Source: Bacteroidaceae bacterium
Lineage (GTDB): Bacteria > Bacteroidota > Bacteroidia > Bacteroidales > Bacteroidaceae
Direction of reading: 5' to 3'
Assembly (NCBI GenBank): GCA_017521285.1
Contig: JAFXDG010000074.1
Coordinates: 1 to 53,007, forward strand
Length of the DNA: 53,007 nucleotides
The stretch's first letter is position 1. Every line of letters starts with the position of its first letter. The notes under the pieces are model-generated. The model searched no databases. It worked only from the letters and a program-made list of their open reading frames with translations, and was not told where the DNA came from. The translations under genes were made by a program, and so were the position numbers. This document shows positions 17,185 to 48,963 of the stretch, one piece after another.

Positions 17185-17308
17185 GCTATCTATTTCGCTC
17201 ACCAACAGCGAATTATACTTTTGTGGAGCATCCACGATGCTTAGGAACTTTCCAGCCATGAGGGTGTTAAAATAGGATTCTCCATAGAGTCCAAGTCATT
17301 TCTTTGTC

Positions 17309-17399
17309 ATTCTGAGCAGCGCGAAGAATCTGTAAACGTAAGCATATTAGCAATTTGGTAAAACGGTCACAGATTCTTCACTATGTTCAGAATGACAGA
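17309..17399. repeat. Inverted repeat of the tcattctgagc/agaatct type
   Basis: tgtcattctgagcagcgcg followed by aagaatctgt (17308-17335) faces acagattctt ... gttcagaatgaca (17370-17399). The sequence resembles a short palindromic element that I recall as common in Bacteroidetes intergenic regions. It may work as a terminator for meaB or be a small non-autonomous element. Confidence 0.65.
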
Positions 17400-17430
17400 G
17401 ACCGCATCTTGACACATCCCCGTGGCTGGA

Positions 17431-17518
17431 TAACGCTTAAGACTCACCGTGCTAACGCTTAAGCGTTACCAACTTATCTTTTAAGAGATTTCTCACTCAC
17501 GCTTAAGCGATTTTTCAG
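17431..17518. repeat. Array of 22-bp units centred on TTAAG
   Basis: TTAAG occurs at 17437, 17459, 17481 and 17503, exactly 22 bp apart. The second unit is a perfect 16-bp palindrome, TAACGCTTAAGCGTTA (17453-17468); the first and fourth keep CGCTTAAG; the third is TCTTTTAAGA. Spacing is strict while the flanks diverge. Confidence 0.85.
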
Positions 17519-17555: not shown

Positions 17556-17641
17556 ATTCGGCGAATAAAACAGCTATTCGCCGAATTTTTCCGGCGAATA
17601 GGAGGCGTATTCACCGAAAAGTAGTTATTTTTGCACCGAAT
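17556..17641. repeat. Array of ATTCG-n-CGAAT palindromes
   Basis: Copies of an 11-bp palindrome occur at 17556-17566 (ATTCGGCGAAT), 17576-17586 (ATTCGCCGAAT), 17589-17599, 17609-17619 and 17631-17641. The last three are degenerate. Start-to-start spacing is 20, 13, 20 and 22 bp. It ends inside the promoter region of the Fic remnant, right after the TTAAG array. Confidence 0.7.
17626..17633 (+). promoter_or_regulatory. Bacteroidetes -7 box upstream of the Fic remnant
   Basis: TATTTTTG, a full match to TAnnTTTG, 29 bp before the ATG at 17662. It suggests that the original promoter of the decayed gene survives. Confidence 0.55.
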
Positions 17642-17661
17642 TACAGTTTAAAAGGATAGAT

Positions 17662-17950
17662 ATGTACCTGCACGAGTATGACAATTGGTGGAACTTCCGC
17701 TACGACAAAGAGCGTGTGATACTCAAAGGAACACTTTGCACATCAGTCGGTAAACGAGCGACAACGTAAACTCATCAACATGCAGTTCGATGGTTTCTTC
17801 GGAAAACTCACTACAGGAAAATGGGCAAAGATTGCCAAATGTTCGTCTGACACAGCACTGAACGACATCAAAGACCTTTTGGCAAAAGGCATGTTGGTGA
17901 AAAACGAAGAGGGTGGACGAAGCACAAACTATTCACTTACAGAAGTGTAG
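17662..17950 (+). pseudogene. Fic-family gene remnant with large internal deletion
   Basis: The 5' part encodes MYLHEYDNWWNFRYDKERVI, typical of the N-terminus of DUF4172-type Fic proteins, then runs out of frame and stops at 17767. In another frame from about 17740 the sequence reads NERQRKLINMQFDGFFGKL, then KWAKIAKCSSDTALNDI, LLAKGMLV and GGRSTNYSL, ending at 17950. That is the winged-helix-like C-terminal tail of the same family. The roughly 250-residue centre with the HPFxxGNGR AMP-transfer motif is missing, so the gene cannot make an active Fic enzyme. It is preceded by repeat arrays and a surviving promoter box. Confidence 0.8.
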
Positions 17951-24393: not shown

Positions 24394-24518
24394 GAGTAAG
24401 TCAACCAACATCAAAAATAAAGTTTAACCCGGTCAACCCAAACTACAAATAAGACTGAAAGTAGTCGACTAAAATCGTTAGCATACATTCAAAAACATAA
24501 AATGATGCTTCACTTCTT

Positions 24519-24603
24519 TATTTCACGTCACGAAACAAATATTTCACGTCGTGAAATGAGTATTCCAAAGCGTGAAATGACTATTCTGCGACGTGAAATG
24601 AAG
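24519..24603. repeat. Array of 21-bp units with TTTCACG/CGTGAAA cores
   Basis: Four units begin at 24519-24520, 24541, 24561 and 24582. TTTCACGT occurs at 24521 and 24542 (21 bp apart), and GTGAAA-type words at 24530, 24551, 24572 and 24593 (21 bp each). Unit 2 is nearly a perfect palindrome, ATTTCACGTCGTGAAAT. The left end has the TTTCACG orientation and the right end CGTGAAA, so 24511-24531 and 24586-24606 can pair with few mismatches. Confidence 0.85.
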
Positions 24604-38884: not shown

Positions 38885-39048
38885 TTAATGTGCTAATCTG
38901 TAAATGTGCTAATGTGCCAATGACCATGCGGCACTATTTTATCACATTGTCACATTGTTACATTGGCATATTATCATATTTGCACATTAGCACATTAGCA
39001 CATTAGCATATTAGCATATTAGCATATTAGCATATTGTCATATTGTCA
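38885..39048. repeat. AT-rich tract of attagcac/attagcat words
   Basis: Words of 9-10 bp (cacattagc, catattagc, catattgtc) are tandemly repeated through 38940-39048. The inverse word (atgtgctaat) is at 38888-38918, so the two ends can fold into a long imperfect hairpin. It fills the whole spacer between the BNR-4 gene and the Sua5 gene. Confidence 0.85.
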
Positions 39049-39050
39049 CA

Positions 39051-40355
39051 TTACTCTACCGTCAACACAAATACCGGTCTTGCATCTACGGCTACACTCT
39101 GTTCTCCGTCACCCTGATAGGCACATTGTACGTAAATGTCCAATTGATGGCGGTTTTTCCACAATTCGGTGTCGTGGCTCGGTTCCCATGCTTCGACACT
39201 GAAATTGGTCAAATCCTTCATTTGCCATGGCTTGTTGCCCAAGTCGGTGGTGTAAGCCATTGATACACGGCTGCCACGCTCTACATCGCGATAGATATAG
39301 TAAGCCTCCTTGCGGCCTTCCACTTCGCGGATGGCCAATCGGGGACGGGCAATAGGAATACACTTGGTTCCTCCACCGCTGAGGCTGAAGGGGGTCTTGC
39401 GCTGGCTCACTTGCTCTTGTTTCCAGGTGTTTCCATCGTGCCATACCAGACGGTATTGGGGTACTTGGCTATTGGCGCTCCGCCAATAGATGGCTATGTA
39501 GGGACGGCCTTCGGCATCAGCCGTCATGCTTGTCTGGTTTATCAATTCGCTTCGTTGGGGAATCTGACAAGCAATCTCGGCATTGGCCATGGTGATAGGC
39601 AAACTGTAGGCCTCGCCGGTAGATTTCTGCCATGTGCGTCCTCCGTCGGTTGAACGGGCATAGCAAAGGTCGTGGTTGGTTGCCACGTCAGGTGTCTCGC
39701 GCCATACCCAGCTGACGTGTATTGTGCCCTTGGCATCCACATAAAGCTGCCAATAGGCATTGCGCTTGCGCTCGCCATCAATCAATACGTCTTGTACGCG
39801 GCTCCACTTCTGAGTGCTCACATCGTAACGGTTCATTACCAGATTGCCCCGGCCTGATCCTCCCGAACGGTAAGCGAAGAGCAGATTGCCCCCTTCCAAG
39901 TTGTAAAACTCGGGGTAGGTCACATCGCGTTCATCAACTCCCGTCATGGGTTGCAGGTCGCCCAACTGAAGCGAACCTGGTGCCACCGAACGGCAATAGC
40001 GCAACGGATTGTTGTGATGGTCGAAGGAAACGTGCAGGTATCCTTTTCCGTCCACTCCGATACTGATGACGTTGTGCGCATCCTGGCAATTTCCTTTGTA
40101 TTGGGTACGCTCGACCGTCCAATTGTCTGTTCCGACGGGGCGTTTGCCCAATGTGAGGAAACCTTCGGCATCGTAGTAGGCAATGTATTGCGTGTCTCCG
40201 TGTGTGGTCAATGAATTGTTTCTGAATACGGTGGTGTTCACTGAATTACGGCTCCATCCGAATCCGACAGGACTCAACTTTTGTGCGTAAATCGTTTGGC
40301 TTGTCCAAGTGAGGAAAGCTGTCAATAAACAAAGTTTGGCTATTGTTCTTTTCAT
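39051..40355 (-). CDS. BNR-4 repeat exported protein
   Basis: A 434-residue protein with a signal peptide (MKRTIAKLCLLTAFLTWTSQTIYAQ). The body is a beta-propeller of BNR-4 type: GDTQYIAYYDAEGFLTLGKRP, NCQDAHNVISIGVDGKGYLHVSFDHHNNPL, EGGNLLFAYRSGGSGRGNLVMNRYD, ARSTDGGRTW and ADAEGRPYIAIYWRS. Related propellers occur in polysaccharide lyases and sialidase-like proteins. The conserved His pairs would suit a lyase or glycan-binding role, but I cannot assign a substrate. Monocistronic with a full-consensus promoter. Confidence 0.85.
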   Translation of the reverse strand: MKRTIAKLCLLTAFLTWTSQTIYAQKLSPVGFGWSRNSVNTTVFRNNSLTTHGDTQYIAYYDAEGFLTLGKRPVGTDNWTVERTQYKGNCQDAHNVISIGVDGKGYLHVSFDHHNNPLRYCRSVAPGSLQLGDLQPMTGVDERDVTYPEFYNLEGGNLLFAYRSGGSGRGNLVMNRYDVSTQKWSRVQDVLIDGERKRNAYWQLYVDAKGTIHVSWVWRETPDVATNHDLCYARSTDGGRTWQKSTGEAYSLPITMANAEIACQIPQRSELINQTSMTADAEGRPYIAIYWRSANSQVPQYRLVWHDGNTWKQEQVSQRKTPFSLSGGGTKCIPIARPRLAIREVEGRKEAYYIYRDVERGSRVSMAYTTDLGNKPWQMKDLTNFSVEAWEPSHDTELWKNRHQLDIYVQCAYQGDGEQSVAVDARPVFVLTVE

Positions 40356-40428: not shown

Positions 40429-40971
40429 TTATTTTGTCCGGCCATATACATTCTGATGAATGGTCTGGCAGATGAGTTCGTAATCGTGTTCAAAGGAAAG
40501 CACTGGAGTTACCATTAGATAGAGGGGTAACCATTCGTCGGACTCCCGATAAGGCGGTTGCAGATAATCGCATCTCCAAAGAGCGAGGCCGCAATGTTCA
40601 TAGAAGTTGATGCGTCGGCGGCTTGCCTCGTCGGTGGGATGCTCCACTTCCAACACCACAGGCTTTGTGTGTGAGCCAAGAAATGTGCCTAATACATCTT
40701 TCCCATACCCTTTGCCGCGCAATGCTTCATCAATAGCCAGGTGCTCTATATATAAAAAGGTATCGAAATCCCAATAAGTGAGTACCCCTACAGGACTTTT
40801 ATCGTCTGATACCAACAGACAATGAAACTGCTCTTCGTTGTCCGCATTCCACCGCTGCCTGTCATCATCGCGCCGCTCGTTCTCAGGAAATGCAGTGTGC
40901 AACAGTGCTTCCACAAATCCGTAGTGCTCATGCTCGCTCCCAATCTCTTGTAACTTCACCATATTCTTCAT
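40429..40971 (-). CDS. GNAT-family N-acetyltransferase
   Basis: A 180-residue acetyltransferase. The acetyl-CoA site is LYIEHLAIDEALRGKGYGKDVL (R/Q-x-x-G-x-G/A type), then VVLEVEHPTDEASRRRINFYEHCGL. The substrate is unknown. Starts at 40971 or 40962 (MVKLQEIG) are equally possible; both lie at the edge of a ttcactc repeat tract. The BNR-4 promoter lies beyond its stop. Confidence 0.88.
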   Translation of the reverse strand: MKNMVKLQEIGSEHEHYGFVEALLHTAFPENERRDDDRQRWNADNEEQFHCLLVSDDKSPVGVLTYWDFDTFLYIEHLAIDEALRGKGYGKDVLGTFLGSHTKPVVLEVEHPTDEASRRRINFYEHCGLALWRCDYLQPPYRESDEWLPLYLMVTPVLSFEHDYELICQTIHQNVYGRTK

Positions 40972-41017
40972 TCTTCACTCTTCACTCTTCATTCTTCACT
41001 CATCACTCTTCACTCTC
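40966..41017. repeat. ttcactc-word repeat between GNAT and MscS genes
   Basis: Words ttcactc/ttcattc/atcactc are repeated about seven times. The tract covers the 3' end of the MscS-type gene (its last residues VKSDE and stop at 40996) and reaches the start of the GNAT gene. A similar tract is at 48939-48963. Confidence 0.75.
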
Positions 41018-42195
41018 AACTCCCTCACATCTTCCCCCATCGGACTTTGGAATACATGGAGACCGTACTGGGGTACTGAGGCCATCACATAATCAAACAC
41101 ATCGGCTTGCAACGTCTCGTATGCAACCCATTGTTTGTCGGCCGAGAAGAAATAGAGTTCCAATGGCATACCTTGTGGAGTGGGCTGCAGTTGGCGCACC
41201 ATTACCATCAGGTCCTGATTCACGCGCGGATTCTCCTTCAAGTATTTCATCAACGCGCGGCGGAGCATGGTGATGTTGGTCAGTTCCTCTTGGCGGTCTT
41301 CGGGGAATATCAGACCTCGCTCTTCATATTTCTTCATCTCTTCGGGGGTGCAGAAGCGTACGCTCGTCATGTCGATGTTGATGGAGCGTTTGATGCGCCG
41401 GCCGCCACTCTCGAACATGCCCCGCCAGTTCTGGAATGAGTCACTCACCAGCGTGTATGGTGGTACGGTCACGGTCGTGTTGTCCCAGTTGCGCACCTTT
41501 ACGGTCGTAAGGTTCACTTCGAACACCACACCGTCGGCACCGTATTTGGGCATCGTTATCCAGTCGCCCGGGCGCAGCATATCGTTGGCCGACAGTTGTA
41601 CACCGGCCACCAGGCCCACGATGGTGTCTTTGAATACGAGCATCAGCACCGTAGCCGCAGCTCCCAGTCCGACAAACAGGTCAATGGGCGATTTCTCAAG
41701 CAGTATGCTGAATATCAGTATGAGCCCTACGCATACGGCCAGCACCTTTATCATCTGGAATACCCCCTTCAATGGGCGGTTCTTGGTCTTCTCCCGCTCG
41801 TTGCTCAAGGCATAGAGCGAGTTGGAGAAACTGAAGACCAACCTCAATGTGGTGGCAATGATGTATATTTCGCAAAGCTTTATCAGGAACGATTGCAGCA
41901 GCGGAGTGGTGGTGAACACGAATGGCATCAGCAGATTGGCCACAAAGGCAGGGATGATGTGACACATGTCGTCCAGCACACGGTCGCTCAGCAAATGGTC
42001 GTCCCAAGTGACGTTGGTCCGTTTGACTACAGCCTTGATGGAGGGGACAATCAATCGGCGGCATACAAGGTCGGCCAGCCATGCCAGCGCAATGACGAAG
42101 GCAATGCCTGCAATCTGTTCGGTCAGAGTGATGCTTCCTTGGTTCATCCCCATGCTGGAGAGCCATTGTGCGAAGCTTTCTTTTATTGAATCCAT
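40996..42195 (-). CDS. MscS-family mechanosensitive channel (YbdG-like)
   Basis: A 399-residue protein from the ATG at 42195 (MDSIKESFAQ). Several N-terminal membrane helices are followed by the pore helix and beta domain of MscS: IDLFVGLGAAATVLMLVFKDTIVGLVAGVQLSANDMLRPGDWI, then FEVNLTTVKVRNWDNTTVTVPPYTLVSDSFQNW. The insertion RRIKRSINIDMTSVRF resembles the YbdG subgroup, which gives small-conductance, osmotic-stress-linked channels. The C-terminal residues are encoded within the ttcactc repeat. Confidence 0.9.
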   Translation of the reverse strand: MDSIKESFAQWLSSMGMNQGSITLTEQIAGIAFVIALAWLADLVCRRLIVPSIKAVVKRTNVTWDDHLLSDRVLDDMCHIIPAFVANLLMPFVFTTTPLLQSFLIKLCEIYIIATTLRLVFSFSNSLYALSNEREKTKNRPLKGVFQMIKVLAVCVGLILIFSILLEKSPIDLFVGLGAAATVLMLVFKDTIVGLVAGVQLSANDMLRPGDWITMPKYGADGVVFEVNLTTVKVRNWDNTTVTVPPYTLVSDSFQNWRGMFESGGRRIKRSINIDMTSVRFCTPEEMKKYEERGLIFPEDRQEELTNITMLRRALMKYLKENPRVNQDLMVMVRQLQPTPQGMPLELYFFSADKQWVAYETLQADVFDYVMASVPQYGLHVFQSPMGEDVRELRVKSDE

Positions 42196-43225: not shown

Positions 43226-43278
43226 GAGCTATCTCATCACTCGTAGCTTGCCACTCTAATTGAACTTTAAATCTTGAC

Positions 43279-43341
43279 TATGAAAGTCAGCGTATGGATT
43301 ATGGAAGTCCATGCTTGGGTTATGGAAGTGCAGCGATAGCA
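43279..43341. repeat. Array of 21-bp units beginning TATGGAAGT
   Basis: TATGAAAGT at 43279, TATGGAAGT at 43300 and TATGGAAGT at 43321, exactly 21 bp apart; the remaining 12 bp of each unit diverge. Local dyads (atgga/tccat, agtgc/gcact) are present. Read in phase it would be a seven-codon repeat, but no start or conserved frame supports coding. Confidence 0.75.
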
Positions 43342-48938: not shown

Positions 48939-48963
48939 TTTCACTCTTCACTCTTCACTTTCT
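48939..48963. repeat. Short ttcactc-word repeat between punA and thiL
   Basis: Three to four copies of the word cttcact lie in the 41-bp spacer and touch the punA stop at 48963. Same word family as 40966-41017. Confidence 0.6.

Follow-up and report, generated by a model that had tools for sequence, protein, structure and literature searches.

Intergenic repeat arrays with a common period of about 22 bp in a Bacteroidaceae genome and its relatives

Is there a class of intergenic arrays that is set by the period of its units rather than by their sequence? The question is raised by a short spacer in a Bacteroidaceae genome in which the word TTAAG recurs in regular steps. An earlier note on this DNA had taken the row for the best example of such a class and had proposed that the arrays are held to a helical spacing. 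The stretch analysed here (53,007 bp, hereafter the window) is the entire contig C99 of a 3.38 Mb draft genome with 141 contigs. The features referred to in the text are as follows.

Array A, positions 17431 to 17518, no strand assigned: four 22-bp units with the core TAACGCTTAAGCGTTA, both ends degraded; identified by word positions, relatives and a shuffle test.
Repeat B, positions 17556 to 17641, plus strand: TTCGSCGAA palindromes at 20, 13 and 20, adjoining a promoter-like site upstream of a fic remnant.
Array C, positions 17 to 117, no strand assigned: four 22-bp units (GCAGCCTGCTGC plus ATTGGCCGAT) with the ends CCCCTTTTTCAC and GTGAAAAAGGG(G).
Array D, positions 24519 to 24603, no strand assigned: four 21-bp units on ATTTCACGTCGTGAAAT.
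Array E, positions 43272 to 43341, no strand assigned: three 21-bp units of the GGACTATGGAAGTCCATGCGT type.
Module beside D arrays, window positions 24450 to 24520, also at loci L066, L069, L070, L072, L075, L078, L081, L084 and L086.

Array A and the dispersed families of the window

The TTAAG words of array A stand at 17437, 17459, 17481 and 17503, in the exact 22-bp steps that had been claimed for them, and the sequence likewise bears out the perfect 16-bp palindrome of unit 2 (TAACGCTTAAGCGTTA, 17453-17468). In the real window TTAAG is the sole 5-mer to recur four times with a single constant spacing between 15 and 30 bp; such fourfold 5-mers occurred in 0 of 2000 dinucleotide shuffles of the array A spacer and were absent from 200 shuffles of the 30 window spacers of at least 50 bp. 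By plain tandem identity array A is weak and is not among the window arrays that reach 28 of 42 matches. Array A is real, the case for it being the phased word together with its relatives. A search with its spacer against 41 genomes revealed further copies, mostly in the genomes G011, G012 and G014, and all 20 places of similarity retrieved carried rows of CTTAAG units. Exact matches to CTTAAG-N16-CTTAAG-N16-CTTAAG were present in seven of 15 genomes of the genus (32 in G012, 29 in G011, 18 in G014, 10 in G005, eight in G004, seven in G002 and three in the window's own genome), and the reversed control pattern matched in none of the 15. A GTDB scan with the CTTAAG pattern gave at least 119 stretches, 17 of which were inspected. 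The 80 matches listed came mostly from Bacteroidaceae, Prevotella-type and other Bacteroidales; among the matches listed few stretches lay outside Bacteroidales, e.g. in Streptococcus, Mycoplasmopsis and Pseudoalteromonas. A phage origin was considered too and not adopted; the pattern matched ten stretches of a viral collection. At nine loci (L035, L036 and L040-L046) an A array is followed by a shared 165-bp stretch and then by E-type units, so different families travel together. The window also holds a hairpin repeat at 17300-17402 (GTCATTCTGAG ... CAGAATGACAGAG), with similar pieces elsewhere in its own genome, which falls within the window stretch that aligns to the G011 array region.

Four further arrays of like shape had been named in the window. 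Those at 1-118, 24519-24603 and 43279-43341 stood, and the one at 17556-17641 did not, its palindromes being set at 20, 13 and 20 (repeat B). The same 20/13/20 layout is found upstream of a homologous gene in G012, G003 and G016, and a 13/20 layout in G019; the intact G012 gene downstream of its repeat B copy consists of DUF4172 and Fic. A TAnnTTTG sequence, which we take to be promoter-like, comes after the palindromes. Judged by this arrangement, repeat B looks like an operator for the fic-family gene, and it falls outside the phased class. The window gene itself (17661-17950) is a fic remnant of the DUF4172 plus Fic family with its middle part missing, and intact relatives exist elsewhere, e.g. 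in G012.

The array sequences had been called unrelated, which is correct between families; each array belongs, however, to a dispersed multi-copy family and is not isolated. Array C occurs at 16 places in its own genome with an identity of 90-100 percent (one of these being the overlapping contig end of the same copy), diverged copies exist in five other genomes, the array has terminal inverted ends, and one copy is short of one unit. Array D was found at 14 places in its own genome and also in G014, G012 and G002. In all 21 D copies the match span equals the query span, and four units are retained even at 70 percent identity. Array E had 14 matches in its own genome and 12 in G014. Dispersal on this scale needs some copying process under any reading of the arrays. 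Five C copies (behind the window gene 142-1884 and at L099, L107, L113 and L114) lie 25 bp past the stop codon of related genes, which share the same C-terminus, of the TYLYIVTYPDGRRESGKVMMK type in most; Pfam gave no family for the window gene 142-1884. In G014 and G000 the same HU-HIG gene has a D array immediately upstream of it (L065, L079). The module TATGTTAACG ... TTAGTTGACTAC is found within about 70 bp of 10 of the 21 D arrays, often 28 bp away.

The arrays could be non-autonomous mobile elements, MITE- or REPIN-like, which owe their presence to their own spread and whose inner 22-bp repeats would be transposase contacts or mere passengers. The near-identical dispersed copies and the terminal inverted ends of array C favour this explanation, as do the flanks in common around the A copies of G011 and G012 and the module at the D copies. 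We nevertheless regard it as unlikely. No transposase was recognised by eye in the flanking ORFs inspected, and no 5-10 bp flanking direct repeat that could be a target-site duplication was seen at 10 of 13 C copies, the other three (5, 6 and 8 bp) stemming from many tried offsets. REP, BIME and REPIN elements are dispersed extragenic palindromes of 20-40 bp that are sometimes regularly spaced and protein-binding; REP palindromes bear a GTAG or CGTC tag at one end, and REPINs are tied to RAYT transposases; the arrays differ from them in that the Y1 (RAYT-type) transposase domain is absent from G008, the array-richest genome sampled. It is absent also from G011 and G019, with one weak match each in G000, G012 and G014 and four in Xylanibacter brevis.

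Searches of open-access literature turned up no account of a class of phased 22-bp arrays. The nearest described relative is BrickBuilt of Porphyromonas gingivalis, which is described as a minisatellite-MITE of Bacteroidales that is always intergenic, with 19 loci in one strain and 23-nt tandem units whose number varies by strain, 22- and 23-nt direct repeats being mentioned in W83 (PMC4596501). Its description as a MITE speaks for mobility of the present arrays as well, which are also intergenic and dispersed and have tandem units of 22-23 nt. BrickBuilt is, however, a single sequence family with IS5-like ends, confined to P. gingivalis and P. gulae (PMC4596501), whereas the arrays described here form many unrelated families that have only the period and, where tested, the phase in common. 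The IS5-like ends (GAGACCTTTGCA type) had no match with up to one mismatch within 400 bp of 20 A arrays; at up to two mismatches five scattered matches were found in the window, none of them within 250 bp of array A. PINSR, a 188-bp intergenic repeat of the Prevotella intermedia group with 177 and 184 copies in two strains, is without terminal inverted repeats (PMC4755523). It resembles the arrays in being intergenic and from Prevotella and differs in being described as one sequence family.

A period shared by unrelated sequences

We surveyed the spacer DNA of 14 genomes for tandem arrays of period 13-40 bp that reached a minimum of 28 matches in 42 comparisons. Genes were called and arrays detected with simple custom scripts, and the detector dropped microsatellites (repeats with a period of up to 12). 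The samples comprised 453 kb of the window's own genome including the window, 600 kb of the closed genome G008, 200 kb of G019, 40 kb of G016, and 20 or 40 kb each of ten more genomes of the genus. A period of 21-23 bp was found in 91 of 103 arrays (67 at 22 bp, 14 at 23 bp and 10 at 21 bp), with one array each at 20 and 24 bp and 10 elsewhere. When periods up to 75 were allowed and the window was left out, 91 of 104 arrays fell at 21-23, 42-46 or 65-69. The unit sequences differ widely among the surveyed arrays, and shuffled spacers gave almost none, in line with the shuffle check that the earlier note had proposed. Arrays of period 20-24 are present in 12 of the 14 sampled genomes, with none in the G006 and G009 samples, and are most abundant in G008 (46 in 600 kb). 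Taken together, the G008 density and the presence in 12 of 14 genomes mean that a visible share of the intergenic DNA in a dominant group of gut and rumen bacteria obeys one geometric rule. The proposal of a class of intergenic arrays set by period rather than sequence was borne out far beyond the window by these multi-genome scans.

Further samples were scanned outside this set. About 80 kb each of G022, G026, G031 and G032, which belong to other genera or families, contained 0-2 arrays at 20-24 per genome; G039, for which the gene caller gave no genes, was left out of account. In 100-kb samples with periods up to 75, seven of 12 arrays of X. brevis ATCC 19188 were at 22 bp, and so were four of four arrays of X. 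muris and three of four of Segatella copri Indica; Bacteroides xylanisolvens XB1A, with poor gene calls, was mixed (n=13, two at 21, one at 23 and four at 42-46). No 22-bp peak was seen in 50 kb of E. coli K-12, where one array had a period of 18. A chance origin of the arrays was ruled out by the shuffles, by the reversed-pattern control, by E. coli and by the arrays within G008 genes, whose periods are multiples of three, and a microsatellite artefact was ruled out by the removal of periods up to 12. Other repeats were noted in passing. In G000, rows with steps of 13 and 19 bp are what is left of CCATCG-type repeats, an 8/16/24-bp array of ATTAGCAT-type units at 38939-39053 of the window differs from the 22-bp class, and heptamer microsatellites (TTCACTC type) at 40954-41022 and 48940-48959 are common in these genomes.

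One period across many unrelated units, several of them plain direct repeats, is what would be expected if tandem units arose anywhere between genes by mutation or copying in fixed steps of about 22 bp, the arrays being otherwise neutral and homogenisation within arrays making the families. The C copy that lacks a unit fits this explanation as well. It appears improbable to us in view of the retention of four units in D copies down to 70 percent identity and of the indel frequencies given below; moreover, we know of no enzyme that makes fixed-size steps of about 22 bp.

Helical spacing, common phase and pairing

The step from one CTTAAG word to the next was measured at the 20 A loci that the similarity search had yielded; it is 22 bp in 61 cases, 21 bp in 29 and 42 bp in one, so that 90 of 91 spacings are 21 or 22. 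Indels per substitution amount to 0.049 in A arrays versus 0.187 in the 165-bp spacer of the same nine copies, which is about fourfold lower and is not expected from a mutational step; the ratio is 0.048 in D arrays. In C arrays it is 0.173 and not low, against a constraint on their pitch. None of these ratios comes from independent sequence pairs.

Arrays in G008 and X. brevis have arrays of a different sequence on their flanks. The relative phase of such neighbours was compared in 17 pairs of 22-bp arrays, a pair being kept if its units were unrelated (no more than 14 of 22 alike) and its dyads clear on both sides. The phase difference was 0-0.5 or 10.5-11 bp in 12 of 12 testable pairs, where random phase would give a chance of 3 in 22 per pair of falling so close; the 12 pairs (eight from G008, three from X. 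brevis and one from G012) are not independent because they come from eight spacers in three genomes, and the G012 pair touches and may be a single array. The five pairs that were dropped differ by 8, 6, 0, 2.5 and 1 bp. That unrelated sequences share a two-turn period, narrow spacing and one register argues that their helical position is constrained. The earlier claim to this effect is pointed to by the CTTAAG spacings, by the low indel frequency of A arrays (not of C arrays) and by the shared phase of unrelated neighbours. Neither the one period in unrelated sequences nor the common phase is explained by mobility alone.

Our preferred explanation, which we put forward tentatively and at somewhat below an even chance, is that DNA-coating proteins use the arrays as docking tracks of fixed pitch. 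Each track would offer about three to eight sites of two helical turns each (21-23 bp), and the bound proteins would be aligned on a single side of the helix, each in contact with the next. Palindromic units are the expectation for homodimers, other units being plain direct repeats, and different families would be sites for different proteins. Where neighbouring families share one register the assembly could cross the border between them, and the tracks would have been copied around the genome, in part along with flanking DNA. Period, dispersal, narrow spacing and common phase are observations, as are the conservation, replacement and absence at one orthologous site described below; the protein, its side-by-side assembly and any use to the cell are inferred. 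In plasmid iterons, protein binds side by side to tandem sites that are about 17-22 bp long and in helical register, next to a rep gene at the origin. The arrays resemble them as tandem sites in helical register and differ in that those of the window adjoin genes for MeaB, TrkH, ribosomal protein L9 and the like and that their families are dispersed. No replication initiator was found by Pfam in eight window genes (mostly array neighbours); other loci were inspected by eye. If proteins do read the arrays, they would constitute a chromosome-wide DNA-binding system of which we found no description in the open-access literature, and if no protein reads them, a mutational step of fixed size needs explaining. 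Either way, the period is a simple and testable marker.

How far the units are palindromic bears on docking tracks as well as on hairpins. Tested strictly over the entire consensus unit, 37 of 93 arrays come out as palindromic at p≤0.05 and 56 do not (palindromic per period: 35 of 67 at 22 bp, one of 14 at 23 bp and one of 10 at 21 bp). The test overlooks units whose palindromic core is short, and several surveyed units are direct repeats without dyad symmetry. Periodicity obliges any sequence that has a dyad to have another, offset by half the period, and the alternation of palindromes in array C calls for no cause beyond this. Three G008 families pair equally well within and across units (0.826/0.814, 0.850/0.844 and 0.718/0.721), the pattern expected for half-sites that are read separately. 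Within-unit pairing exceeds cross-unit pairing in D (0.837/0.738), A (0.582/0.478) and C (0.828/0.788), an excess that would also come from a hairpin and in this respect counts against docking tracks. No covariation of the arms was detected in the three G008 families. Together with the 56 of 93 arrays that are not palindromic by the strict test, this disfavours the idea that selection generally acts on a hairpin or on the cruciform of which the earlier note had spoken. With seven of eight pairs required in a dyad, the distance between successive dyads in G008 was 22 bp in 12 cases and 33-34 bp in another 12. The same scan gave no peak in G000 and G019, and palindromes alone thus do not reveal the class there.

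Gene context and orthologous sites

In G008 spacers of up to 1500 bp, with each array of a spacer counted singly, 15 of 39 arrays lie between convergent, 20 between tandem and four between divergent genes (22, 53 and 25 percent of spacer bases, respectively). This excess of convergent contexts would suit a role of the arrays as RNA, in which tandem hairpins at transcript 3' ends terminate transcription or protect mRNA. The position of 14 of the 20 tandem-context arrays closer to the upstream 3' end is in agreement with it, as are the five C copies 25 bp behind stop codons. Over all G008 spacers (n=50), however, the counts are 15 convergent, 27 tandem and eight divergent, near the base shares, the preference seen in short spacers weakening when long spacers are included. 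In the spacers of up to 1500 bp, distances from array to gene end do not differ from those under random placement. Hairpins require no pitch of 21-22 bp, many arrays are not palindromic, the arms do not covary in G008, and no Rfam family was found over arrays in the seven sources tested. We consider an RNA role very improbable. A promoter role for every array was also rejected. It fits repeat B at fic and array D upstream of HU-HIG, and others sit between convergent genes.

A comparison of the same locus in related genomes had been proposed earlier, and nine of 14 loci were read behind meaB. The site carries an A array with six CTTAAG words in G011, where the preceding DNA aligns to the window; in the window itself, the hairpin repeat lies within the stretch aligned to G011 and is followed by repeat B and the fic remnant. 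Repeat B and a fic remnant are present in G014. In G004 a different array of the same period (GTATCTTAAGATAC) replaces A, with CTTAAG at 112, 134 and 156, and no array was seen within 650 bp in G002, G012, G005, G006 and G008. One species hence shares the array with the window, a second has a different 22-bp array in its place, and five showed none. More speculatively than for docking as such, the arrays may be a chromosomal element defined by geometry, that is 22-bp docking tracks shared in one register by several unrelated proteins, in which the unit sequence would turn over with its protein and be kept or rewritten across Prevotella-lineage genomes.

Arrays were also compared with their flanks at orthologous loci. 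Between L041 and L046 the array and the adjoining 275 bp differ by 2 substitutions in 425, the other flank by 53 in 737; array and 275 bp are equally unchanged, which looks like a recombined tract. Between L079 and L065 the array has 20 substitutions in 95 and no indels, and the right flank 14 in 62 with two indels. In our view, selection on the sequence of the arrays is not clearly indicated by these comparisons.

The window carries array D ahead of trkH, where G006 and G002 have arrays of 23-bp period that contain two and six CAATCAGT words, respectively. This variation in unit number at an orthologous site (six in G002 versus two in G006, 23 bp apart) is a point in favour of the mutational step discussed above. 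At both loci (L358 and L357) the 23-bp array, with six units in G002 and two in G006, lies between a 5S rRNA-like sequence and trkH.
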